Source: Fusobacteriota bacterium
GTDB lineage: Bacteria; Fusobacteriota; Fusobacteriia; Fusobacteriales; JAAYPW01
Length of the DNA: 35,023 bases
Assembly (NCBI GenBank): GCA_012519615.1
Contig: JAAYPW010000014.1
Span: 1 to 35,023 of the forward strand
Direction of reading: 5' to 3'
The stretch's first letter is position 1; each line of letters begins with the position of its first letter. This document shows positions 604-15,637 of the stretch, piece by piece. A program made the translations under genes and the position numbers. Under the pieces are notes generated by a model. That model searched no databases. It saw nothing but the letters and a program-made list of their open reading frames with translations, and had not been told where the DNA came from.

Positions 604-3174
604 TTATTCTTCATCATCATATAAATTTTCATTATCATCTTCTTCATAATCCTCATCATTATCTTCATAGTTTTCATATTCTAGTAATTTTTGATTTTCC
701 GATTCTGATTTATTCTCCGAATTTAGATTAAATAATGATAACTGTTCATCCTCTTTATCTTCATTACATATTTTTATGATTGCCACAACATTATCATCAG
801 GATTTATTTTCATTACTCTAACTCCTCTTGTTGCACGACCTATTACAGATATATTATTTACAGAAGTTCTAATTAGTATTCCACCTAGAGTAATAAGCAT
901 TAATTCATCATTTTCAACAACTTCTTTTACTTGAACAACATTTCCATTTCTTTCATCTACTTTTATGTTAATTGTACCTTTTCCACCTCTTGATTGAAGT
1001 GTATACTCAGATAATTTTGTACGTTTTCCATACCCTTTCTCTGTAATTGTTAGAACAGTATTTTCATTATTTGATATTATCATACCAGAAACTACTACAT
1101 CATCTTTTCTAAGTCTAATAGCTTTTACTCCTGATGCACTTCTACCCATTACCCTTACATCTTCTTCTTTAAATTTAATTGAATATCCTAATTTAGTTGC
1201 AATAAATAGTTCATTCGTTCCGTTTGTTACTCCTGCAAATATTAGGTCATCTTCATCTTTTAAGTTAATTGCTCTTAATCCTGCTTTATTCACATTTTTA
1301 AATAGACTTAAATTCGTTCTCTTTGCAACTCCAAGTTTTGTTAAGAAGAAAACCTCATTATCCTCAGAAAATTCTCTTACACACATAACAGCACGTACTT
1401 TTTCTTCGTTTTCTAAATTAATAAGATTAACAATTAACCTTCCTCTTGATTGTCTTGAACTTTCTGGTATTTCATATACCTTTATAGTATATACTTTACC
1501 AGTATTTGTAAATATAAGTAACGTATCTAAATTAGATGCAATATACATATTCTCTACAAAATCATCTTCTTCAGTATTATGAGCTGATATACCACGTCCC
1601 CCTCTATTTTGTGCTTTATACTTATCTAAAGTCATCCGTTTTGTATATCCTTTATTAGTAATTGTAACAATTACTCTTTCATCTTTTATAAGATCTTCCA
1701 TATTAATCTCTTTAGCTTTTGTTTGAATTACAGTTCTTCTTTCATCGCCAAAATCCTCTTTTATTTTAATTATTTCCTCTTTTATTATCTCATATATTTT
1801 ATAATCATTTGCAAGTATATTTTTAAGATGTTCTATAAGAGCTAAAAGATCTTTATATTCAGCTTCTATTTTATCTCTCTCTAATCCTGTTAATCTTTGT
1901 AATTTCATATCTAATATCGCTTTAGCTTGCACTTCTGTTAATTCAAAATTCTCCATTAATTTATCTGTTGCTTCTTTACCATCACTAGATGCTCTGATTA
2001 TCTTAATAATTTTATCAATATTATCTAGAGCAATTCTAAATCCTTCTAATATATGGGCACGTTTTTCCGCTTTATCAAGTTCGAATTTTGTTCTTCTTGT
2101 TATCACTTCGAATCTATGTTCTATATAATAAGTAAGAATTTCTTTTAAATTAAGAACTTTTGGTTCATTATTAACTAAAGCTAACATAATAATTCCAAAT
2201 GTATTTTCTAATTCTGTATACTTATAAAGTTTGTTTAAAACTAATTGAGAACTTTCCCCTCTTCTTAATTCTATTACAACTCTTATTCCGTCTCTATCTG
2301 ATTCATCTCTTAAATCTGATATCCCTTTTATTTTTTTATCTCTAACTAAACTCGCTATTTTCTCAATTAATCTTGCTTTATTTACTTGATAAGGTACTTC
2401 ATTTATAATTATAGCTTCCTTACCATTTTTTAATTCCTCTATTTCTACTTTTCCTCTTACTCTTACTTTTCCACGACCTGTTAGATATGCTTCTTTTATC
2501 CCTCTAGTTCCGTTTATAATTCCACCTGTAGGGAAATCTGGACCCTTTATAATTTTAATTAATTCTTCAATTGAGATATCTCTATTATCGATAACTGCTA
2601 TAATTCCATCTACAACCTCTTTCAGATTATGTGGTGGAATGTTTGTAGCCATACCTACTGCAATACCAGATGCTCCATTTAAAAGTAAATTTGGTAATTT
2701 CGCTGGCATAACTTGTGGTTCATCTAAACTGTCGTCAAAGTTTTTTCTAAAATCCACAGTATTTTTATCAAGATCACCTAATAATTCTGATGTTATTTTT
2801 GCCATTCTAGCTTCAGTATATCTCATTGCAGCAGCAGAATCTCCATCTATTGAACCGAAGTTTCCATGTCCATTTACAAGTTCATATCTATAGTTAAAAT
2901 CTTGTGCCATCCTAACCATTGCACCATAAACTGCAGAGTCACCATGTGGATGGTATTTCCCCAATACTTCCCCAACGATTCTTGCTGATTTCTTAAAAGG
3001 TTTATCGTGGAACATTCCCATATCATGCATTGCATAAAGTATTCTTCTATGTACCGGTTTCAATCCATCTCTTACATCTGGTAGAGCACGACTTACTATT
3101 ACACTCATGGAATAATCTAAATATGATGCTTTTATCTCATCCTCTATATAAATAGGTATTTCATTATTTGACAT
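604..3174 (-). CDS. gyrA: DNA gyrase subunit A
   Basis: GyrA is the DNA cleavage and rejoining subunit of gyrase (A2B2), which introduces negative supercoils ahead of the fork. It has 856 residues, a usual length. The winged-helix cleavage region includes the quinolone pocket [11 protein letters not shown], with Ser80 and Gly84 at the E. coli Ser83 and Asp87 positions, and the catalytic Tyr119 in [10 protein letters not shown]. The C-terminal beta-pinwheel carries the GyrA box as QSRGGKG, with a second related RGGRG motif before it. The last ~50 residues form a strongly acidic tail (runs of D and E). gyrB is immediately upstream. The start ATG has no nearby Shine-Dalgarno (SD) sequence; the SD is 86 nt upstream behind a predicted hairpin (separate entry). 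Identification is certain. Confidence 0.98.
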
Positions 3175-3277
3175 ATATTTACTACTAACAAAATTTATCC
3201 TAAATATTAAATTTCTAATTATATAATTATCTTAATAAATATATAATTGTTAGCAGTTTTTCACCGCCTTCCTTTTT
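3175..3277 (-). promoter_or_regulatory. gyrA leader: distant Shine-Dalgarno joined to the start by a long hairpin
   Basis: The only SD-like tract is AAGGAAGGCGGTGA (core at 3261-3268), 86 nt from the ATG at 3172-3174. The mRNA arms CTGCTAACAA (plus-strand 3247-3256) and TTGTTAGTAG (3182-3191) can pair over 10 bp with one G-U. Folding leaves 4 nt on the SD side and 7 nt on the start side, an effective spacing of about 11 nt. The loop holds a second possible hairpin (arms 3217-3225 and 3240-3248, overlapping the outer arm by 2 nt). An in-frame TAA lies between SD and ATG. Confidence 0.6.
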
Positions 3278-3306
3278 CATTGTATAAATATTATATATAC
3301 TTTTTA

Positions 3307-5290
<1,984 letters not shown>

Positions 5291-5324
5291 AGTTAATCAT
5301 ATATTTTAAAATATAAAAATTTAA

Positions 5325-5582
5325 TTATCTTAATTTATATTTTATATTAATATACTCATTTCCTCTAGATTCAAGTGTCCTGCAAGTATATGAACTAACA
5401 TAAATATTTTTATCTGTGATTATTACACTTTTTTTCTCTCCACTTGATAAATCAATAATTTTTCGTCTATTAACCTCAAAAAAATCACTAGTTTTTCCCA
5501 TTAATTTATAATTTTCATAACTTATTATTGATACTATCTCCTTTAAATTAATAAAAAAATTATTTTCTATAAAAATATACAA
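5325..5582 (-). CDS. remB: RemB/YaaB-like protein (DUF370)
   Basis: An 85-residue protein of the DUF370 family, whose Bacillus members RemA and RemB include a DNA-binding activator of matrix genes. The sequence LYIFIENNFFINLKEIVSI, then a variable middle, then KKSVIITDKNIYVSSYTCRTLESRG matches the family pattern (MYIHIG..., KSVVVTD..IY.S....TL). I start it at the TTG at 5580-5582, nine bases after AGAAAGG, giving the family's MYI start; an upstream in-frame TTG at 5591 would add three residues. It occupies the usual yaaB slot between recF and gyrB. Its function in this organism is not shown by the sequence. Confidence 0.8.
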   Translation of the reverse strand: MYIFIENNFFINLKEIVSIISYENYKLMGKTSDFFEVNRRKIIDLSSGEKKSVIITDKNIYVSSYTCRTLESRGNEYINIKYKLR

Positions 5583-5610
5583 ACTACACAACCTTTCTAT
5601 TTTTCAAAAA

Positions 5611-5626
5611 TGTTTCACATGAAACT
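5611..5626. promoter_or_regulatory. parS-like centromere site (left of origin)
   Basis: TGTTTCACATGAAACT matches the ParB site TGTTTCACGTGAAACA at 14 of 16 positions. It overlaps the last codons and TGA stop of the DciA-like gene. A perfect copy lies on the other side of the origin at 13685. Confidence 0.75.
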
Positions 5627-6511
5627 TTTTTTATAACGTTCTTCATTAATTTTATCTTTTTTTATTTTTTCTAATCTTTTGTCTATTAAATTTTCAATTT
5701 CAACCTCTATTTTATCATTATCATATATATTTTTAGTTAAAATCACATATTTATACGCATAAATATATACTTTATTATACATTTTTTCCAGTAACAACCC
5801 ATCTATTTTATTATCAATATGATCTATAACTTTTATTTTTAGTTTATCATAAAGTTCTGAATCTATATCAGGATATAGCTGTTTAAATTCATAAAATGTT
5901 TTTTTCGGATTATTTAATATTGCGTAATATATATTTTTATGAAATTTCTCACGATAATCACTTTTACAAAGATAACAGATATTCCCATTTCCATTATATA
6001 ATATCCCACAATTTTTACATTTTTTATAGGTAGTATTTAATAAATATTTTTCCCTTTTTATATTTTTAGAAATAATATTATATAATTTAAACTTTAAATC
6101 ATTATCTTCTATAAATTTTATATTCTCTTTTATTCTTCTAATATCCTCTCTATTTAAAGAGATACTCTCTATCTCTTTTGATATATCAATATTTTGTTTA
6201 CCTTCATACATATTGGTTTCATTCTTTATTATACCTACTTTAAATTTAGCATTTTCTATAAATTCCTCACTTATAAATTCATTAATGTTTTTAATTAATT
6301 TAAATCTTAAAAAATTTAATTCTTGTAACCAGGCTGAATTTGCAACAGTAATATATATTATACCATTTTTTATGAAATTTGGTGAAGTTTTTAATGATAA
6401 ATTATCTCCTATGATCTTATCCCAATTACTTTTTATATAATTAAATTTAAAATTTATATTTTTATTTATCTCATTTTGTATAACATTTGAAAGGCTTTTA
6501 ATACTCTTCAT
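5615..6511 (-). CDS. DciA-like DUF721 protein with C-terminal zinc ribbon
   Basis: This 298-residue protein begins with a DUF721 domain (about residues 1-95): conserved Trp30 in SNWDKIIGDNLS, then IIYITVANSAWLQELNFLR, the pattern of DciA, a loader of the replicative helicase DnaB in many bacteria. A charged linker follows, then a four-cysteine zinc ribbon (Cys165, Cys168, Cys179, Cys182 in CKNC and CYLC) and a Lys-rich C-terminal part. Typical DciA proteins are much shorter, so the extra ~200 residues are notable. The start is the ATG at 6509-6511, after GAGGAAGGTG, overlapping the end of recF. A helicase-loading role is inferred from the domain and its place in the dnaA operon. Confidence in the domain is higher than in the function. 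Confidence 0.75.
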   Translation of the reverse strand: MKSIKSLSNVIQNEINKNINFKFNYIKSNWDKIIGDNLSLKTSPNFIKNGIIYITVANSAWLQELNFLRFKLIKNINEFISEEFIENAKFKVGIIKNETNMYEGKQNIDISKEIESISLNREDIRRIKENIKFIEDNDLKFKLYNIISKNIKREKYLLNTTYKKCKNCGILYNGNGNICYLCKSDYREKFHKNIYYAILNNPKKTFYEFKQLYPDIDSELYDKLKIKVIDHIDNKIDGLLLEKMYNKVYIYAYKYVILTKNIYDNDKIEVEIENLIDKRLEKIKKDKINEERYKKSFM

Positions 6512-7577
6512 ACAATACACCTTCCTCAATTTTAAAAAACTTAGCATCAATATCTATTTTCTCTGTTGATGTAATAAATAGCTGCATATTTCTTTTTTTA
6601 AAATACTCTATTACTTTTTTTTGTCTTTCGGAATCAAAAAATGAAATAATATCATCAATTAAAAAAATTGGTGCTTCCTTCTTTTCTTTTATTATCATGT
6701 CAATTTCTGCTATTTTTAATGCAAAAATAACAGAACGTTTTTCGCCTTCGGATGAGAAATTTTTACTTTCTAATCCTGATAATAAAAACATAAAGTCGTC
6801 TTTCTGTGGACCAATTGATGTGTATCCATAATATAAATCTTTCTCTAATTGAGTATTTAAAATCTCTTGAAATATATTATGTACCTCTTTTATATTTACG
6901 ATCTCCACAGAAGGGATATATTTTAGATATAGTTCTGTTTTATTATTAAATAGTTTTCTATAATTTAAATTTAATAGAACTGTTATTTTATTTATATATT
7001 CATATCTTATTTCCATTATTTCACTTGATATTTCAATAAATTTATCATTATATATTTTAAATATATCTGTTTTATGTTTTCTCTCTTTTATATATTTATT
7101 TCTTATTTTTAGAATTTGATTAAATTCTTTCAGTTTACTGTAATATGTGAAATTTGATTGTGATATCTCGTAATCAAAGAAATTTCTTCTTGTAGAAGGG
7201 GAACTCATTATAAGATTAATATCATCTGGTATGAAAGAGATAACATTTATTTTTCCAAAAAATTCATCATACATAATTTTATTTTTATTATAAAAATATT
7301 CTTTTTTACCATTTTTATAGTTTAATGCAATATTTTTTTCCATATCCTTTTCAGTATACTGAATAAAGACTGCACCTGATTTAGCATTATATTTTAATAT
7401 ATTTTTTATATTTGATGTTCTAAAACTTTTTCCAGTGATACCAAAGTAAATAGCCTCTATTAAACTAGTTTTTCCTTGTCCGTTTTTACCATAAAAAAAA
7501 TTAATTTTTTTACTAAATAAACATTTTGCTGATATTAAATTTCTTATATTTAAATAATTAATACCAGTTAAATACAA
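6498..7577 (-). CDS. recF: DNA replication and repair protein RecF
   Basis: RecF is an SMC-like ATPase that helps load RecA at gapped DNA and stalled forks. Its 359 residues are the usual size. Visible motifs are Walker A GKNGQGKT (residues 30-37), the signature SSEGEKRS and Walker B IFLIDDI near the C-terminus, with the usual ITSTE after it. The start is TTG at 7575-7577, placed five bases after AAGGGGTG and 2 nt beyond the stop of the S4 gene, so the two are translationally linked. The sequence is quite divergent outside the motifs, but motif order and gene context make the call secure. Confidence 0.93.
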   Translation of the reverse strand: MYLTGINYLNIRNLISAKCLFSKKINFFYGKNGQGKTSLIEAIYFGITGKSFRTSNIKNILKYNAKSGAVFIQYTEKDMEKNIALNYKNGKKEYFYNKNKIMYDEFFGKINVISFIPDDINLIMSSPSTRRNFFDYEISQSNFTYYSKLKEFNQILKIRNKYIKERKHKTDIFKIYNDKFIEISSEIMEIRYEYINKITVLLNLNYRKLFNNKTELYLKYIPSVEIVNIKEVHNIFQEILNTQLEKDLYYGYTSIGPQKDDFMFLLSGLESKNFSSEGEKRSVIFALKIAEIDMIIKEKKEAPIFLIDDIISFFDSERQKKVIEYFKKRNMQLFITSTEKIDIDAKFFKIEEGVLYEEY

Positions 7578-7579
7578 TT

Positions 7580-7801
7580 CTACACCCCTTGATTTGATTT
7601 TATTTTAAATATTTCCTCTTGAAATTGAACTTGATCATCATTATATAATTTTTTTCCTCGTCTTAATTCAACTTCACCATTAACCTTAATTAATCCCTCT
7701 AATATAAGCATTTTCGCATCGGATCCCATACTTACAACATTAGATAGTTTTAAAAATTGATCTAGCTTTATATACTCTGTTTTAATCTCTACAACTTCCA
7801 T
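7580..7801 (-). CDS. S4-domain RNA-binding protein, YaaA/RlbA family
   Basis: A 73-residue protein made almost entirely of one S4 RNA-binding domain: YIKLDQFLKLSNVVSMGSDA, LILEGLIKVNGEVELRRGKKL, then DDQVQF. This is the small S4 protein encoded between dnaN and recF in Bacillus (YaaA/RlbA), linked there to ribosome assembly. An in-frame TAA directly precedes the ATG at 7799-7801, fixing the start. The nearest strong SD is 33 nt upstream across a hairpin (separate entry). Here the gene follows dnaA directly, with no dnaN between. Confidence 0.88.
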   Translation of the reverse strand: MEVVEIKTEYIKLDQFLKLSNVVSMGSDAKMLILEGLIKVNGEVELRRGKKLYNDDQVQFQEEIFKIKSNQGV

Positions 7802-7843
7802 TTAGTGTTTACCAATATCTAATTTAGTAAACTTCCACCACCC
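7802..7843 (-). promoter_or_regulatory. S4-gene leader: Shine-Dalgarno joined to the start by a hairpin
   Basis: The SD GGGTGGTGG (plus-strand 7835-7843) ends 33 nt before the ATG. The mRNA arms GTTTACTAA (7824-7832) and TTGGTAAAC (7807-7815) form a 9-bp stem with one G-U and an 8-nt loop. Folding leaves 2 nt on the SD side plus 5 nt on the start side, a normal spacing of 7. The TAA just before the ATG excludes an earlier in-frame start. Confidence 0.7.
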
Positions 7844-7847
7844 TTTT

Positions 7848-9260
7848 TTAATTAGTCATTATCTCATCTTTTATAAGATTAATATCTTTTTCAAAATTTT
7901 TATCTAATTTAATATCTTTTTCTATTTTATCAACACTATGCATTACAGTTGAATGATCTCTTCCACTAAATAAATTTCCTATCTCTTTAAATGGTTTATC
8001 TAACATAGTTCGTATAAAATACATAGCAACTTGTCTAGGCACTGCAATCTCTTTTTTTCTACTTTTAGATTTAATTTCATCTAATGTTGCATTATAATGT
8101 TCTGCAACTTTTTCAAGTATTTTTTCTTCATTTATATGTCTTGATTTACTTTTTTTCTCGTCTAAAAATACCTCTTGTACAAGATCAATAGTAACCTCTT
8201 TTCTAAGTAACGATGCTCTGGCTATTATTTGATTTAATGCACCTTCTAATTCTCTAATATTAGAATTAATTGTTTCAGCAATATATCGTAATACATTTTC
8301 AGAAACTTTTATCTTATCAATTTCAGCTTTTTTACGTAATATAGCAACTCTTGTTTCGTAATCAGGTTGCTGTATATCTACAGTTAATCCCCATTCAAAT
8401 CTTGAAATCAATCTTTTTTCAACATTAGAAATATCTTTCGGAGGTCTATCACTTGAGATTACAATTTGTTTACCATCTTGATGTAATTCGTTAAAGGTAT
8501 GGAAAAATTCTTCTTGTGTGCTATCTTTTCCTGCTAAAAATTGTATATCGTCAATTAATAAAAGATCAAGTTTACGATATTTTGCACGGAACTCCATCAT
8601 TTTACCTTTATTAATTGAATTTATTAAATCGTTTGTGAATTGTTCTGATGAACAATAAAATATTTTTTTATTATCATCAATTTCAAGAAATCTATTTCCT
8701 ATTGCATGCATTAAATGTGTTTTACCAAGTCCAACATCTCCATTTATAAATAAAGGATTATATTTACTTTTTTCTGCATTATTTTCTGGTTTATTTGACA
8801 CGAATTCTGCTGCTGCATGTGCTAATTCATTACTTTTACCAACAACAAAATTTTCAAATATATGTTTTTTATTAAGATTGTTACTAATTCCGTTAAATAA
8901 ACTAATAGATCTAGTCTTTTTCTCTTCATAATAATTTTTTCCATATTCATAATCATGATTTTTTTCTGGAATATCAAATTTTTCAGTATTTTTTAAATTA
9001 TCTTTCTCAACAACCTCTATATCAATTGTACTTACATGTTCATTATCGTACATTATAGTATTAAGAGCTTCTTCTAATTTATCAATATAATTTAAAATTT
9101 TATTTTTTTGATAAATGTTTTCAACACTAATTATTAATTTATTATCTTCAAATTTTTTTGGCGTAACATTTTTTAACCATGAATTGTAATCAACTTCATT
9201 TATTAATTGAGAAACTATTTTTAATATACTATTCCACAATTTTTCTGCATTATTTTCCAT
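7848..9260 (-). CDS. dnaA: Chromosomal replication initiator protein DnaA
   Basis: DnaA binds the origin boxes, opens the duplex and recruits helicase. The 470-residue form has domain I (1-80), a polar linker (about 85-130), the AAA+ domain with Walker A GDVGLGKT (174-181) and Walker B LLLIDDIQ (233-240), and the C-terminal DNA-binding domain IV with AVPRQVAMYFIR and the signature GRDHSTVMHSVDKIE. I choose the ATG at 9258-9260, 12 nt after GGAGGT; an upstream GTG at 9293 would put the SD inside the coding region. A DnaA box lies in the leader (9286-9294) and others upstream, consistent with autoregulation. The gene is divergent from rpmH across the origin. Confidence 0.97.
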   Translation of the reverse strand: MENNAEKLWNSILKIVSQLINEVDYNSWLKNVTPKKFEDNKLIISVENIYQKNKILNYIDKLEEALNTIMYDNEHVSTIDIEVVEKDNLKNTEKFDIPEKNHDYEYGKNYYEEKKTRSISLFNGISNNLNKKHIFENFVVGKSNELAHAAAEFVSNKPENNAEKSKYNPLFINGDVGLGKTHLMHAIGNRFLEIDDNKKIFYCSSEQFTNDLINSINKGKMMEFRAKYRKLDLLLIDDIQFLAGKDSTQEEFFHTFNELHQDGKQIVISSDRPPKDISNVEKRLISRFEWGLTVDIQQPDYETRVAILRKKAEIDKIKVSENVLRYIAETINSNIRELEGALNQIIARASLLRKEVTIDLVQEVFLDEKKSKSRHINEEKILEKVAEHYNATLDEIKSKSRKKEIAVPRQVAMYFIRTMLDKPFKEIGNLFSGRDHSTVMHSVDKIEKDIKLDKNFEKDINLIKDEIMTN

Positions 9261-9301
9261 AACAACTAAATTACCTCCAAATTTTTTTTCCACATAATGC
9301 T

Positions 9302-9330
9302 ACTATAGCATATTTTTTAAAAATTTACAA
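9302..9330 (-). promoter_or_regulatory. Candidate dnaA promoter
   Basis: On the minus strand, TTGTAA (9325-9330) and TATAGT (9302-9307) are 17 nt apart, with TG just before the -10 (extended -10). The start of transcription would fall next to the DnaA box at 9286-9294, and two further boxes lie just upstream. Confidence 0.5.
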
Positions 9331-9629
9331 ATTAATACTTTTCCACTTTTCAACATACTTATCCACAAGACAATTTGAATAATTAAAGACTTTTTTCACT
9401 TTTTCCACTTTTTGTTCAAATCTCATATTAACAATTCCACCCTTATTTTTACTTAATCTAATTTTTTTTTTCCACATTTTCTTTTTTTTTGTTAATACAT
9501 TGTTAATATCATATTAATAATATGTTAATAACTTATTTTTAAAAAAATAAATGTGCAGAACTTATTATTTTTCCACAAACAATTAACATACTTATTTAGA
9601 TATAATCCTTATAATATCTCTATTTCAAC

Positions 9630-9660
9630 AATTCCACACCCACTACTACTATTACTATTA
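9630..9660 (+). promoter_or_regulatory. DnaA-trio unwinding element
   Basis: A box-like AATTCCACA (9630-9638; 6 of 9 match) is followed by a C-rich CCCA and then six triplets CTA CTA CTA TTA CTA TTA (9643-9660). Their complement reads 3'-GAT GAT GAT AAT GAT AAT-5', the DnaA-trio consensus. AT-only sequence follows. The arrangement box, GC cluster, trios matches the basal unwinding element known from Bacillus. Confidence 0.75.
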
Positions 9661-9739
9661 TTTTTAATTATATTATTTCTTTATTTGTAATTGTGTAAAA
9701 CTCTTTTTTATTTTTTTTATTTTTTTTTATTTATTTTTC

Positions 9740-9768
9740 TTGACAAATATTTTTATTTTTTATACAAT
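9740..9768 (+). promoter_or_regulatory. rpmH operon promoter
   Basis: A consensus -35 TTGACA (9740-9745), a 17-nt spacer and TACAAT (9763-9768) lie about 50 nt upstream of the rpmH start. Confidence 0.8.
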
Positions 9769-9816
9769 ACATTTCTAATTATATATGTATTAAATATTTG
9801 TAGGAGGTGAATTTAG

Positions 9817-9951
9817 TTGAAAAGAACATTTCAACCAAATAATAAAGAAAGAAAAAAAGATCATGGCTTTTTCCAAAGAATGAAAACTAAAAGTGGAAGA
9901 AACGTACTAAAAAGAAGAAGACAAAAAGGAAGAAAAAAATTATCAGCATAA
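9817..9951 (+). CDS. rpmH: 50S ribosomal protein L34
   Basis: A 44-residue, very basic protein of the large ribosomal subunit. The sequence begins [17 protein letters not shown], has [21 protein letters not shown] in two shorter conserved blocks, and ends KLSA, the full L34 pattern. The start is TTG at 9817-9819, six bases after AGGAGGTGA. It is the first gene right of the origin and has its own strong promoter. A hairpin between it and rnpA probably lowers expression of the downstream genes relative to L34. Confidence 0.97.
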
Positions 9952-9980
9952 AACCCGGTGCTTTATTTCACCGGGTTTTT
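9950..9980 (+). terminator. Terminator or attenuator between rpmH and rnpA
   Basis: A GC-rich stem (AAAACCCGGTG at 9950-9960, CACCGGGTTTT at 9969-9979) with an 8-nt loop and a short T run overlaps the rpmH stop codon. rnpA starts only 20 nt later with no promoter seen between, so partial termination is likely. Confidence 0.8.
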
Positions 9981-9999
9981 CAAAAGGAGATATTTTATT

Positions 10000-10338
10000 A
10001 TGTATAAAATACAAAAAAATTATGAATTCCAAAACATCTATAATACAAATAGTAAATTTTTTGGAAAATATATTGTAGTATATATAAAAAAAAATAATCT
10101 TTCTTATTCTAGAATTGGTGTTGTTGCTAGTAAAAAAGTAGGTAATGCTGTTGTTCGTAATAGAACAAAAAGATTATTTAGAGAAGCTTTAAGAATTAAT
10201 TTAGATAATTTCAAATACAATATAGATATAATATTAATTGCTAAAAAAATAATAGGTGATAAAATTAATATTTTAAGGCTTAATGATATTAATAACGATC
10301 TTATTAGAATTTTAAAAAAGGAGAATATCTTAATATGA
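10000..10338 (+). CDS. rnpA: Ribonuclease P protein component
   Basis: The protein subunit of RNase P, which with its RNA removes 5' leaders from pre-tRNAs. It has 112 residues, the usual size. The conserved core is [17 protein letters not shown] followed by [10 protein letters not shown], the RNR RNA-binding motif. The start ATG at 10000 follows AAAGGAGAT at eight bases. The 3' end overlaps yidD by four bases (ATGA), implying coupled translation. The rnpB RNA gene is not in this window. Confidence 0.96.
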
Positions 10339-10544
10339 AAAAAATTCTAATTAATAGTATCAAAGGTTATCAAAAGTTAATTTCTCCATTACTTGGTAAA
10401 AATTGTAGGTTTTATCCTACTTGCTCTAGCTACACTATTCAAGCTTTAGAAAAATATGGTATTATTAAAGGCTTGTTTTTAGGTTTAAAAAGGATTTTAA
10501 AATGCCATCCTTTTAATAAAGGGGGATTTGATCCGTTAAAATAG
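10335..10544 (+). CDS. yidD: Membrane protein insertion efficiency factor YidD
   Basis: A 69-residue protein with the family core [20 protein letters not shown], followed by [12 protein letters not shown] and ending with the [16 protein letters not shown] block. Three cysteines are conserved (in CRFYPTC and LKCHP). YidD is a small inner-face membrane-associated protein that assists insertion of proteins by YidC. It overlaps rnpA and sits 23 nt before yidC, the standard arrangement. Confidence 0.96.
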
Positions 10545-10567
10545 ATTTTAATTTAAGGAGAAAAATT

Positions 10568-11584
10568 ATGAAACGAAAACTTAATAAAATATACATACTA
10601 TTTTCTATTTTAGTATCTATATTTATCTTTTCATCTTGTACAAAAGAAAATGTTGATGTTTATAACTATGAAAATAACTATAAAATAAGTTTTTCTGATA
10701 ATAAAATCAATATTATATCTAATAAAAATTTTAAAACTGCTGAATTTGAAATTAACTATATAATATATAATGATCAAGTTAGCGACATAGAAAAAGATAG
10801 ACTAATTAAAATAAAAAATAATTTTAAAAAAAATAAAACAATTATAGAGATAAATAACAAGAAAAAGATGATAATGAAAGAAGAAATTATTTTTAGCTTA
10901 ATTATAGATAGCGATATAGAAAAAATAATAGATACATTACAAATTAAGTTAAAACAAAGATCTATTATTCCAACAATGATGGAAAAATTTTTAATCTATA
11001 TTAATTTTTTGTTTAATAATTTTGGATTATCAATAATAGCAATTACAATTATAATTAAGTTAATTATGTTACCTCTTACTCTACGAATGGATAAATCAAT
11101 GAGAAATATGAAAAAATTACAACCTGAAGTAGATAAACTAAAAGAAAAATATAAAAATGACCCAAATAAATTAAATACAGAAATGATGAAACTTTGGAGT
11201 GATAATAATATAAATCCTGTTGGTGGGTGTTTACCTGTATTTTTACAAATACCTATCTTCTTTGCTCTATATAGTATTCTTAAAACAGATTCTTTATCAA
11301 ATATTATCCCAAGCGATACTACTTTTTTATATTTTAATCTTACTACTCCAGATAAATTATACATTTTACCTGTATTAAATGGTTTAATTTTATTTTTCCA
11401 ACAAAAAATAATGAAAACAAATGATGATAATTTACAAATGAAGATGTTACAATATACTTTACCAGGAATGATATTTTTTATATCTTTAAATATGCCTGCA
11501 GGATTACAATTATATTGGTTGTTTTCAAGTTTATTTAGCTTTGCACAACAATACTATATTGTAAAATTAACTGAAAAAGAATAA
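10568..11584 (+). CDS. yidC: Membrane protein insertase YidC/Oxa1, lipoprotein type
   Basis: YidC inserts and folds membrane proteins, alone or with Sec. The 338-residue protein begins with a signal sequence ending in a lipobox (IFSSC, Cys24), so it should be a lipid-modified, Gram-positive-type form. A ~100-residue extracytoplasmic segment follows, then the insertase core from about residue 135: FNNFGLSIIAITIIIKLIMLPLT, an MRNMKKLQPEVDKLKEKYKN cytoplasmic loop, NPVGGCLPVFLQIPIFFALY and a final LQLYWLFSSLFSFAQQY membrane segment. The ATG follows TTTAAGGAG. It lies between yidD and jag as usual. Confidence 0.96.
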   Translation: MKRKLNKIYILFSILVSIFIFSSCTKENVDVYNYENNYKISFSDNKINIISNKNFKTAEFEINYIIYNDQVSDIEKDRLIKIKNNFKKNKTIIEINNKKKMIMKEEIIFSLIIDSDIEKIIDTLQIKLKQRSIIPTMMEKFLIYINFLFNNFGLSIIAITIIIKLIMLPLTLRMDKSMRNMKKLQPEVDKLKEKYKNDPNKLNTEMMKLWSDNNINPVGGCLPVFLQIPIFFALYSILKTDSLSNIIPSDTTFLYFNLTTPDKLYILPVLNGLILFFQQKIMKTNDDNLQMKMLQYTLPGMIFFISLNMPAGLQLYWLFSSLFSFAQQYYIVKLTEKE

Positions 11585-11631
11585 AAAACTAATAATTTTT
11601 AAACTTTTTATAAAAAAGGAGTGAATACTAA

Positions 11632-12279
11632 TTGAATAAGGAAATTGAGGTAAAAGGAAGTAATTTAGATGAGGTTACTAAAAAAATTACTGATGAATAT
11701 GGCAATGATTGTAATTTTGAGATTATAGAATTAAAAAAATCTAAATCTATTCTTGGATTTATAAATACAAGTGGTTTATATAAAGTAATACTTAAAGAAA
11801 AAGAGAATGAGAATAAGAAAATCTCAAATGATGAAGTTATAGAGACGAAAACTCCACTTGAGATAGAAACTAAAGTTAAAGAACTTATCGAATTAATGGA
11901 TTTAGATTTAAAATTTAATATTACTGAAACAAATGGTAGATATTTAATTAATTTTAATGGTAAAGATAACGGAATATTAATAGGAAAAAAAGGTAAAACT
12001 TTAAATAGTTTTGAATTTCTTTTATCTAGTATTTTAGATAAATATAAAATTGATATTGATGTAGAAGGATTTAAAGCAAAAAGGGAAGAAACTCTAAAAG
12101 ATCTTGCCAATAAAATGGTTTCTAAAGTTAGAGAAACAGAAAGAGCTGTTAAACTTAATCCAATGCCTCCTAGAGAGAGAAAAATTATTCATGAGGCAGT
12201 TAATTGTTATGAAGATATTGATACTTATAGTGAAGGAAAAGATCCTAAAAGATATATTGTTATTAGAAAAAAAAGGTAG
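11632..12279 (+). CDS. jag: Jag/KhpB-type RNA-binding protein
   Basis: A 215-residue cytoplasmic RNA-binding protein. An N-terminal Jag domain (about 1-50, IEVKGSNLDEVTKKITDEYG with SKSILGFI) is followed by a KH domain with the GILIGKKGKTLNSFEFLLS loop (about 118-140) and a C-terminal R3H domain (RKIIHEAV, then PKRYIVIRKK). In Gram-positive bacteria this family (KhpB/EloR) acts with KhpA in RNA control and cell elongation. The start is TTG at 11632, after AAGGAGTGA. The mnmE start is 9 nt after its stop. Confidence 0.95.
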   Translation: MNKEIEVKGSNLDEVTKKITDEYGNDCNFEIIELKKSKSILGFINTSGLYKVILKEKENENKKISNDEVIETKTPLEIETKVKELIELMDLDLKFNITETNGRYLINFNGKDNGILIGKKGKTLNSFEFLLSSILDKYKIDIDVEGFKAKREETLKDLANKMVSKVRETERAVKLNPMPPRERKIIHEAVNCYEDIDTYSEGKDPKRYIVIRKKR

Positions 12280-12288
12280 GTTTTATGT

Positions 12289-13662
12289 ATGTTTGATACA
12301 GTTGCAGCTATATCAACCCCTATTGGTGAGGGTGGAATTGGTATAATAAGAATTTCTGGAGATGAAGCATTTTCAATATTAGAAAAAATTTTTAAGCCGA
12401 TAAACAATAAAAATATAGATACTATAGCTTCTCATACGATAAATTTTGGATATATTTATGACGGCAAAAATATAATAGATGAAGTTTTAGTGTCTATTAT
12501 GAAAGCACCAAATACGTATACAAAAGAAGATATTGTTGAGATAAATTGTCACGGTGGATTTGTAATAACAAATAAAGTTTTGGAAATAGTATTGAAAAAT
12601 GGAGCTAAATTTGCAACACAAGGGGAATTTACAAAAAGAGCTTTTATGAACGGAAGAATAGATTTAAGTCAGGCAGAATCTGTTATTGAAATTATAAAAG
12701 GTAAAACTGAACAAAGTGTAGAAAATTCTCTTAAACAATTACGTGGGGATTTAAAAGAAAAAATCTCAATCTTAAAACAAAATATTATAGATGTGGCATC
12801 ACATGTAAATGTAGTTATAGATTACCCAGAAGAAGGGATCGATGAACCATTACCAAAAGAATTAGAAGAGAAATTACTAAGTGTAAAAGAAGAAATTACT
12901 GTATTAATAAACTCTTATGATAAAGGTAAAGTATTGAAAAATGGTATTAAAACCTCTATAGTTGGAAAACCAAACGTAGGTAAATCAAGTCTTTTAAACG
13001 CACTACTTAAAGAGGAACGTTCAATTGTAACGCATATTCCAGGTACAACGAGGGATATAATTGAAGAAGTGATTAATATAAAAGGTATTCCATTTATATT
13101 AATTGATACTGCAGGTATTAGAAAAACAGATGATATTGTAGAAAATATAGGTGTTTTAAAAAGTAAAGAGATTATAAATAAATCAGATCTTATACTATTT
13201 ATAATAGATAGTTCAAAAGATATAGATAATGAGGATATTGAAATATATTCTTATTTAGATAAAGAAAATGTAATTGGTATATTAAATAAGATAGATATAA
13301 TTAAAGATGAAAATAAAATATATGAAAGATTTCCCAATATAAAAAATTGGATTAAAATTTCAGCAAAACAAAATATTGGTATAGATGAAATGTTAGATGA
13401 AATTTATAATATTATTATTAGAGATGAGATCCAAAATTCATCTAAGGATATAATTATAACAAACGTTAGACATAAAGTTTCGCTTGAAAATACAAAAAAA
13501 AGCATAGAAAATATATTTAACACAATTAATCTTAATTTCCCTTTGGATTTAATATCTGTTGACTTAAAAGAGGCGATGGATAATTTATCCGAGATAACAG
13601 GAGAAATTACGTCTGAAGATATTCTAGATAATATATTTAAGAATTTTTGTGTAGGGAAATAG
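12289..13662 (+). CDS. mnmE: tRNA modification GTPase MnmE
   Basis: MnmE and MnmG together build the 5-carboxymethylaminomethyl modification on U34 of several tRNAs. The 457-residue protein has the N-terminal folate-binding domain ([11 protein letters not shown]-like start, [23 protein letters not shown]), a central helical region and a Ras-like G domain from about 215: GKPNVGKS (226-233), [15 protein letters not shown] and NKID. It ends with the catalytic C-terminal motif CVGK. The gene closes the rpmH operon; a parS-containing palindrome follows. Confidence 0.98.
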
Positions 13663-13675
13663 ATTGTTGTATAAA
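13647..13675 (+). promoter_or_regulatory. Weak candidate promoter for mnmG
   Basis: TTGTGT (13647-13652), a 17-nt spacer and TATAAA (13670-13675) with a TG before the -10. It lies at the end of mnmE, and a transcript from it would begin in the parS palindrome. Weak match; low confidence. Confidence 0.35.
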
Positions 13676-13717
13676 AATATAAAATGTTTCACGTGAAACA
13701 TTTTATATTTTTTTTGT
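13676..13717 (+). terminator. 34-bp palindrome and T run: likely terminator containing parS
   Basis: Bases 13676-13709 form a perfect 34-bp inverted repeat centred between 13692 and 13693, followed by eight T's. As RNA it would fold into a long stem with a U tail, suiting termination after mnmE. The central 16 bp are a parS site. Confidence 0.65.
13685..13700. promoter_or_regulatory. parS centromere site (perfect consensus)
   Basis: TGTTTCACGTGAAACA is the exact ParB-binding palindrome known from Bacillus and many other bacteria. It lies between mnmE and mnmG about 4 kb from the origin. parA and parB are not in the window. Confidence 0.93.
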
Positions 13718-13727
13718 AATATTTTTT

Positions 13728-13768
13728 AGGAGGAGGGAGTTATTATATTAAATTATAATAACGTAATT
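13728..13768 (+). promoter_or_regulatory. mnmG leader: Shine-Dalgarno joined to the start by a hairpin
   Basis: The SD AGGAGGAGGG (13728-13737) ends 31 nt before the ATG at 13769. A perfect 9-bp hairpin, GTTATTATA (13739-13747) with TATAATAAC (13754-13762) and loop TTAAAT, fills the gap. Folding leaves 1 nt plus GTAATT, an effective spacing of 7 nt. Here the frame is open back to the SD, so initiation at an ATT or ATA codon close to the SD cannot be excluded. Confidence 0.65.
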
Positions 13769-15637
13769 ATGATATATGATGTATTAGTAATTGGAGCAGG
13801 ACATGCAGGTTGTGAAGCTGGATTAGCTGCTGCAAGATTAGGAAAAAAAACTATTATGTTTACTCTTTTTGCAGATAATATAGGGATGATGTCTTGTAAT
13901 CCATCTATAGGTGGTCCTGGAAAAAGTCATTTAGTTTCTGAAATAGATGTCTTAGGTGGAGAAATTGGAAAACATGTAGATAAATATAATATTCAACTAA
14001 AACACTTAAATGAGAGTAAAGGTAAAACCTCAAGAGTTGTTCGTGCACAAGCAGATAAATATTTATATAGAATTAATATGAAAAAAATACTAGAAAATAC
14101 CGATAATTTAGATCTAGTACAAGAAAAAATAGTTGATCTTATTATTAATGATAATAAAGTAGAAGGAGTAATCACCTCTTTAGGGATAAAATATTTTTCA
14201 AAAACAGTAATTATAACAACAGGAACTTTCTTAAAAGGGAGAGTTATTGTTGGTGATATTAAATATAATGCTGGTAGAGAAGGGGAAATGTCGTCTGAAG
14301 AATTACCAGATAATTTAGAAAAATATGGAATAAAAATGTCAAGATTTCAAACTGCAACACCTCCTAGATTAGAAAAATCTTCTATAGATTTTACAAAAGT
14401 TAAAGAACTATATGGAAATGATAATCCTAAATATTTTTCTGTGTTTACCAAAAAAAATAAAAATATTAATATTCCAACATGGTTAACGTATACAACAGAG
14501 GAAACTATCGATGTTGTAAAAAACCTGTTGAAATATTCACCAATTGTAACAGGAATTATAGAAACACATGGACCAAGACATTGTCCATCTTTAGATAGAA
14601 AAGTTTTAAATTTTCCTCATAAAAAAAATCATCAAATATTTTTAGAACAAGAAAGCATAGAAAGTAGTGAAATATATCTTAATGGATTAACAACTGCTAT
14701 GCCACCATTTGCACAAGAAAAAATAATAAGAACAATAGCAGGATTAGAAAATGCAAAAGTTATGAGATATGGATATGCGGTAGAGTATAGCTATGCACCG
14801 TCATATCAGCTAAATCTTTCTCTAGAAAGTAAAAAAATAGATGGCCTTTTTTTTGCAGGACAAATAAATGGTACATCTGGTTATGAGGAAGCAGCTGCAC
14901 AAGGTTTTTTAGCTGGAGTAAATGCTGCAAGAAAATTAAATAATGAAGATCCTATTATAATTGATAGAAGTGAAGGTTATATTGGTGTATTAATTGATGA
15001 TTTAATAAATAAAAAAATGATAGAACCATATAGAATATTACCTTCTAGAGTGGAATATAAACTACTTTTAAGACAAGATAATGCTTTCATAAGATTAATA
15101 GATATATCTAAAAAAATTGGTATAATTAGTAAAGAAGAAATAGATTATTATATAAATATGAGAGAATCTATTGAGATAGAAACAGAAAGATTAAAAAATG
15201 AAAAAATACATCCTGATTATGAAAATAACCTTATATTAGAAGGGATGAACGAAGAAAAAATAAAAAAAACTATAAATAGTTCTGAATTATTACAAAGAGA
15301 AAATATTAATTATGAAGATCTTAAATATTTTATAAATATAAGACACTATCCAAAAGAAATAATTGAACAAGTAGAAATAAATATTAAATACGGAGCTTTT
15401 ATTAATAGAGAAATAGAACAAATTACTAAATTTAAAAAATTAGAGAATCAAAAAATACCAAAAGATCTTAATTATGATATTATTAGAGGTTTATCTAATA
15501 TATCTAAGTCAAATTTTAAAGAGATTAAGCCTTTATCTATAGGTCAAGCTAGTAGAATCTCAGGAGTAAGTAATAATGATATATCAATATTAGCAATGTA
15601 TTTAATGAATTATAAGGAGAATAGTAATGGAATTTAA
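13769..15637 (+). CDS. mnmG: tRNA modification FAD enzyme MnmG (GidA)
   Basis: The FAD-dependent partner of MnmE in U34 modification of tRNA. It has 622 residues, the usual length. The N-terminal dinucleotide-binding motif is VIGAGHAGCEAGLAAARLG; further family blocks are GMMSCNPSIGGPGKSHLV, QTATPPRLEKS, ETHGPRHCPSLDRKV, FAGQINGTSGYEEAAAQG and GYIGVLIDDL, with the C-terminal GQASRISGVSNNDISIL. The ATG at 13769 gives a rather short N-terminus (MIYDV). It overlaps mfd by 11 nt. rsmG and parAB, often next in other genomes, are not here. Confidence 0.98.
   Translation: MIYDVLVIGAGHAGCEAGLAAARLGKKTIMFTLFADNIGMMSCNPSIGGPGKSHLVSEIDVLGGEIGKHVDKYNIQLKHLNESKGKTSRVVRAQADKYLYRINMKKILENTDNLDLVQEKIVDLIINDNKVEGVITSLGIKYFSKTVIITTGTFLKGRVIVGDIKYNAGREGEMSSEELPDNLEKYGIKMSRFQTATPPRLEKSSIDFTKVKELYGNDNPKYFSVFTKKNKNINIPTWLTYTTEETIDVVKNLLKYSPIVTGIIETHGPRHCPSLDRKVLNFPHKKNHQIFLEQESIESSEIYLNGLTTAMPPFAQEKIIRTIAGLENAKVMRYGYAVEYSYAPSYQLNLSLESKKIDGLFFAGQINGTSGYEEAAAQGFLAGVNAARKLNNEDPIIIDRSEGYIGVLIDDLINKKMIEPYRILPSRVEYKLLLRQDNAFIRLIDISKKIGIISKEEIDYYINMRESIEIETERLKNEKIHPDYENNLILEGMNEEKIKKTINSSELLQRENINYEDLKYFINIRHYPKEIIEQVEINIKYGAFINREIEQITKFKKLENQKIPKDLNYDIIRGLSNISKSNFKEIKPLSIGQASRISGVSNNDISILAMYLMNYKENSNGI

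Follow-up and report, generated by a model that had tools for sequence, protein, structure and literature searches.

Translation initiation sites in which an RNA structure brings a distant Shine-Dalgarno (SD) sequence close to the start codon are best known from bacteriophage T4, where such split ribosome-binding sites were described by Nivinskas and colleagues (1999) and by Malys and Nivinskas (2009) and have been reviewed (PMC3014915). In T4 gene 38 the structure cuts the spacing from 22 to 5 nucleotides (nt) and in gene 25 from 27 to 11 nt, and mutations that destabilise these structures lower initiation (PMC3014915). Here we report on four leaders of this kind in a 35,023-nt contig (JAAYPW010000014.1) of a Fusobacteriota bacterium, which is the whole stretch of DNA analysed and is called the window below. 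The four leaders precede a gene for an S4-domain protein, gyrB, gyrA, and mnmG. As in T4 genes 25 and 38, the only strong SD lies beyond functional distance and an intervening stem-loop, here known in silico, would restore the range. Based on folding models, we propose with a probability of roughly 0.77 that these four leaders are members of a class found throughout the genome, in which a stem-loop directly 3' of the SD functionally replaces the spacer. Unlike T4, where experiments proved the arrangement for two genes whose gaps are 22 and 27 nt, this host has about 40 cases in half of its genome, with gaps of up to 89 nt, all known from sequence alone; it also differs from T4 in the near-constant geometry of SD, stem and start and in the stem bases that subsets of its hairpins share. 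Genome-wide use of bridging hairpins in a bacterium was not found in the literature searched, outside which most subscription journals lay and which held the T4 cases only; what is added here to a type of site known from two phage genes is its occurrence throughout the genome of a bacterium, in a geometry that hardly varies.

In what follows the gap is counted between the final G of the SD core and the start codon, and each gap in the window was folded alone and compared with 1000 dinucleotide shuffles. The leader of the S4-domain gene (7802..7843, minus strand) has the SD GGGTGGTGG at 7835-7843, stem arms at 7824-7832 and 7807-7815 (GTTTACTAA/TTGGTAAAC), a spacer at 7802-7806, and the ATG, immediately preceded by TAA, at 7801. 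Its gap of 36 nt folds into a 9-base-pair (bp) stem at -7.8 kcal/mol (p 0.006), which leaves 10 nt unpaired; its SD is weak (-7.6 kcal/mol by a Watson-Crick-only score). The gene itself (7580..7801, minus strand) is yaaA-like, matches TIGR02988 with 82.4 bits, slightly below the cut-off of 84.75, and lies in a dnaA-recF neighbourhood. The gyrB leader (5227..5288, minus strand) has the SD AAAGGAGG at 5281-5288, arms at 5261-5279 and 5237-5253, a spacer at 5227-5236, and the ATG of gyrB (3307..5226, minus strand) at 5226; the gap is 54 nt with 11 nt unpaired and folds at -9.5 kcal/mol (p 0.003-0.015). The longest gap, 89 nt, is that of the gyrA leader (3175..3268, minus strand). Here the SD GGCGGTGA at 3261-3268 is followed by a long branched hairpin at 3181-3257 closed by ACTGCTAAC/GTTAGTAGT, a spacer at 3175-3180, and the ATG at 3174 of gyrA (604..3174, minus strand; NF004043/TIGR01063), and the fold at -16.8 kcal/mol leaves 12 nt unpaired (p 0.003). 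On the plus strand, the mnmG leader (13728..13768) consists of the SD AGGAGGAGG at 13728-13736, arms GTTATTATA at 13739-13747 and TATAATAAC at 13754-13762, and a spacer at 13763-13768 before the ATG at 13769 of mnmG (13769..15637; TIGR00136). Its gap of 32 nt holds a perfect 9-bp stem at -7.3 kcal/mol and leaves 8 nt unpaired (p <=0.002). The original prediction, made from the letters of the window, had given SD distances of 33, 53, 86 and 31 nt for the S4-domain gene, gyrB, gyrA and mnmG and hairpin-reduced spacings of 7, 10, 11 and 7 nt; our measurements agree with both sets of values to within a few nucleotides. It had also taken almost all other genes in the window to be ordinary, and all other called genes there do have an SD at ordinary distance. 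For the four genes themselves no plausible alternative start sites were found and the N-termini of homologues agree with the called starts. Moreover, the gaps of the S4-domain gene, gyrB and gyrA contain an in-frame stop, and in none of the four leaders is there a start codon in the right frame near the distant SD.

The host genome, placed in the order Fusobacteriales by its gene set and relatives, has a size of 1.80 Mb in 158 contigs, among which the window, with a GC content of 25%, is contig C63. Genes were scanned in 898 kb of it, about half, with the window included, using a home-made gene caller based on hexamer coding score, start-codon type and SD energy, and the 717 called genes with a clear 5' end are the base for the counts in the host. 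An unfiltered scan for SD, stem and start gives many intragenic chance matches in every genome, and gene-anchored tests were used instead. About 630 of the 717 genes have a good SD at ordinary spacing (median 7 nt), whereas 51 lack an SD at close range and have a strong one 18-75 nt from the start. These 51 were picked by SD strength alone, ignoring structure. Importantly, the gap folds at p<=0.01 in 23 of them, against 0.5 expected from dinucleotide shuffles, and the mean z is -2.3; segments of equal length upstream of the same 51 SDs gave a mean z of about 0. This is the comparison with shuffled leaders that had been suggested as a check, and the excess, together with the leader folds, supports as far as folding models can the view that the four genes use bridging of the T4 gene 25/38 type. 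The idea that replication and tRNA-modification genes close to oriC form a series of their own was not supported, because the architecture occurs genome-wide and in many functional classes. Forty-four candidates were listed, with a gap fold at p<=0.01 in 31 and an in-frame stop within the gap in 34; when the lists were read by hand and doubtful entries dropped, 39 hairpin-bridged leaders remained, about 5% of the called genes, and by extrapolation the whole genome may hold about 80. Cases at C38:43660, C65:7219 and C2:12136, and that of pyrH, had been missed by the filters.

The geometry of the 39 leaders is nearly constant. Their gaps range from 28 to 89 nt, and the unpaired length has a median of 11 nt (interquartile range, IQR, 10-13.5), rises with gap length with a slope of 0.10 +- 0.05, and falls within 5-16 nt in 87% of the cases compared with 52% of shuffled gaps. 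A median of 2 nt (IQR 1-3) separates the SD duplex from the stem, and a median of 7 nt (IQR 6-8) separates the stem from the start codon; in ordinary genes the SD duplex lies 6 nt (IQR 5-8) from the start. Thus modelled, the hairpin resembles a piece inserted where the SD:anti-SD helix ends on its 3' side, followed by a spacer of normal length. The stems exclude the SD and the AUG and are near-perfect, with 31 G-U among 468 pairs, and their GC content is 33% in the outer 4 nt versus 16% inside. In silico they have a mean pair probability of 0.80 at 37°C and 0.77 at 60°C.

One could argue that inverted repeats arise by chance in AT-rich leaders, where hairpins form easily, and that some starts are miscalled, as some of the 51 distant-SD calls are. 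If this were the case, then a relative of equal GC content should show the same thing. The same pipeline applied to relatives in the Fusobacteriales gave 0/341 genes in G040, which is the nearest relative by GyrB and has a GC content of 24.3%, and 0/182 in G062, 0/193 in G091, 0/189 in G083 and 1/163 in G015, in total 1/1068, and 80 gyrB-flanking loci from other phyla, used as an outgroup, were near background. With the equal-GC relative at zero, 23 folds where shuffles predict 0.5, and starts backed by homology, chance is refuted for the class as a whole, and we consider it extremely improbable as the general explanation, although single members may be chance. Homologue N-termini usually align at the same residue as the called starts, and the SD is ordinary in 23/23 homologous leaders of relatives (16 query entries); these two observations together indicate that the called starts are right. 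Examples are the G040 homologue of the S4-domain gene with a spacing of 6, gyrB in relatives L103, L105 and L107 with an SD 5-6 nt from the start, and gyrA in relatives with a spacing of 8-9. Since homologous leaders are ordinary in relatives, the hairpins were, most simply, added in the host lineage between a pre-existing SD and start, that is, they would be derived there. In this the host is like T4 gene 25, whose arrangement is also confined to one lineage and missing from more distant relatives.

Two isolated leaders were seen elsewhere. The single one in G015 (loci L232-L236) reads AAAGGAGG AATGAGTTTTGTG...CAATAACTCAAAAAT ATG, has a p of 0.01, and stands before a gene for a probable secreted protein; another precedes mnmG in L069, from an uncultured Clostridia bacterium. 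Sporadic bridged leaders may occur in other organisms.

A lineage-specific origin raises the question whether the hairpins are copies of a dispersed palindromic element, inserted or arisen between SD and start and tolerated because of their folding while giving the gene no advantage. The absence of hairpins from the same genes in relatives and the near-perfect stems would fit such copies, and so would two subsets of leaders that share the base of the stem. In the first, GGAGGGAGTTAT, a variable stem-loop, and ATAAC or ATAGC precede the ATG at seven sites in the whole genome, one of which is the mnmG leader, and the reversed pattern, used as a control, occurs at none; GGAGG(R)GAGTTAT is found 6 times in the host sample, always with a hairpin-like continuation, compared with 0 in the 1.2 Mb of sequence from relatives. 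The second has the form GGTGA-(A)n-CTGCT...AGCAG and includes gyrA (with one G-U), typA, a cheY, ybaB, and others; CTGCT stands at the start of the gap in 5 of the 39 leaders compared with 0.5 in shuffles. The remaining arms have no clear common sequence. The claim that the arms are not a repeat family thus stands for most leaders and fails for these two subsets. Against the palindromic element, a freely inserting one would be expected between genes in general, but the density of perfect stems of at least 9 bp outside SD-start gaps and terminator-like sites is 0.75 per intergenic kb in the host and 0.79-1.6 in relatives. The hairpin enrichment is specific to the SD-start gap and there is no general hairpin excess in the host genome, and a general hairpin-making mutation was rejected on this ground. 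In addition, the lack of a common arm sequence in most leaders is not what such copies would show, and their fixed position, 2 nt from the SD and 7 nt from the start, would require selection or an unusual insertion specificity. We therefore consider a neutral palindromic element unlikely. The shared stem bases may go back to a common ancestor, may be recognised by a factor, or may reflect a G-C preference at the foot of the stem. A tentative suggestion, which we think somewhat improbable, is that of a dispersed family of SD-adjacent hairpins in which the stem bases are conserved (GA-GTTAT/ATAAC-G and CTGCTAA/TTAGCAG) while the upper stems vary freely, spread precisely between the SD and start of dozens of housekeeping genes, either as a mobile palindromic element aimed at this position or as a site to which a dedicated initiation factor binds.

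Standby structures are found upstream of an SD whose own spacing is ordinary, whereas the host hairpins lie between SD and start. The likeness to structured standby-site leaders is limited to a 5' untranslated region structure beside the ribosome-binding site that the ribosome must accommodate (PMC3936740). RNA thermometers and translational riboswitches are comparable in that leader structure affects initiation, as the host hairpins are predicted to do. Those elements sequester the SD or the AUG and open on a signal, whereas the host stems exclude both and are predicted to keep their fold up to about 60°C. An RNA thermometer was rejected on these grounds, and the tuning of initiation by temperature that the original prediction had considered is not borne out. 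A broader possibility is that the hairpins are switches, opened or held by a trans-acting protein, small RNA or helicase that sets the initiation of a regulon. Opening a hairpin would indeed put the SD out of range, and stem bases common within subsets could serve a shared factor, but the genes concerned show no common pathway, the leaders in the window match no known cis-regulatory family (tRNA is the sole match in the window to Rfam at gathering score), and the predicted stability speaks against at least the thermometer type. The numbers of DEAD-box helicases and S1 domains in the host are similar to those of its relatives, which also argues against a switch; for the same reason neither a lost S1 nor an enlarged set of DEAD-box helicases was accepted as the cause of the hairpins. 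Altogether a switch seems quite unlikely.

Another way to account for a distant SD is that it serves a short leader open reading frame and that the gene is reached by termination and reinitiation. A start codon does follow the SD by 4-12 nt in 11 of the 39 gaps. However, shuffled gaps have more such starts (15.4 +- 2.6) and the other 28 gaps have none; a leader reading frame is thus disfavoured and very improbable.

Several points weigh against replacement of the spacer by a folded hairpin. The structural support is in silico prediction throughout, and in context at 37°C the predicted probability of being unpaired is only moderate for the SD (0.55) and the AUG (0.47). When folded in wider context the mean pair probability is 0.99 for mnmG and 0.96 for the S4-domain gene, but 0.50 for gyrB and 0.63 for gyrA, where other folds compete. 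The gene caller is home-made and the sample covers half of the genome, the distant-SD calls include miscalled starts, and the anti-SD was deduced from the SD consensus, a 16S rRNA gene not being found in the host assembly. The 39 leaders were chosen partly by structure, which biases the geometry figures toward the model; the test with 23 of 51 genes is free of such bias. Finally, bridging alone does not explain the stem bases shared in the two subsets.

If the hairpin does replace the spacer, then the 30S subunit would pair with the SD while the hairpin remains folded and possibly stacked on the SD:anti-SD helix, and the start codon would arrive in the P site just as it does behind an ordinary spacer. 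Opening the hairpin would give a spacing of 30-90 nt, and initiation would be expected to fall. On this model the hairpins would have arisen in the host lineage between the SD and start of formerly ordinary genes and would be retained because the site works only when folded.

Outside the window bridged leaders precede the genes for the C-terminal half of transketolase, two RluA-family pseudouridine synthases, dihydropteroate synthase, homoserine dehydrogenase, fumarate hydratase, two CheY-like regulators and an anti-sigma-factor antagonist, as well as murG, ylqF, cheR, rsmI, ftsH, pseI, prfA, typA, murI, ybaB, purM, pheS, and lpxD. No common pathway is evident from the profile identities of the curated genes. 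Their position in operons is mixed, some being internal, with no more than about 10 nt between the SD and the stop codon before it, and others being first genes. Gene finders and models of initiation take the distance between SD and start to be almost fixed. Here that rule appears to be broken, in the same way and with near-constant geometry, by about 5% of genes, of which many belong to the core set; they would provide dozens of natural tests of a folded hairpin as a substitute for the spacer on the 30S subunit, and raise the question how such hairpins spread.

Bridged leaders would also cause systematic errors in start-site annotation in this lineage, and pyrH and tilS look like examples. 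In pyrH (contig C1, locus L002, near 6440-6500, minus strand) the first ATG lies between the arms GCTAACAT and ATGTTAGC of a stem, and a second in-frame ATG (MKPVYKRVLLKLSGE) follows the end of that stem by 7 nt; the hairpin model thus predicts the second ATG as the start. A tilS-like gene (contig C48 near 4648-4770, minus strand, locus L159), which reads SGGPDS, has the SD GGAGGGAG followed by a GTTATC...GATAAC hairpin, and after the hairpin there is no in-frame ATG, GTG or TTG until inside the conserved motif. Judged from the sequence, an ATT codon about 10 nt downstream of the hairpin may be the start of this gene.

A search for MnmG across the order gave two MnmG-like matches per genome in nearly all other Fusobacteriales, the second about 50-58% identical, and one in the host. 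Two parS-like palindromes of the ParB/Spo0J/Noc type lie near oriC, TGTTTCACGTGAAACA at 13685-13700 and TGTTTCACATGAAACT at 5611-5626 of the window. The first sits between mnmE and mnmG within a longer perfect inverted repeat and the second at the 3' end of a minus-strand gene at 5615-6550. The dnaA-rpmH intergenic region, at 9300-9800 of the window, is very AT-rich, contains several boxes like TTATCCACA and TTTCCACA, and is presumably oriC.

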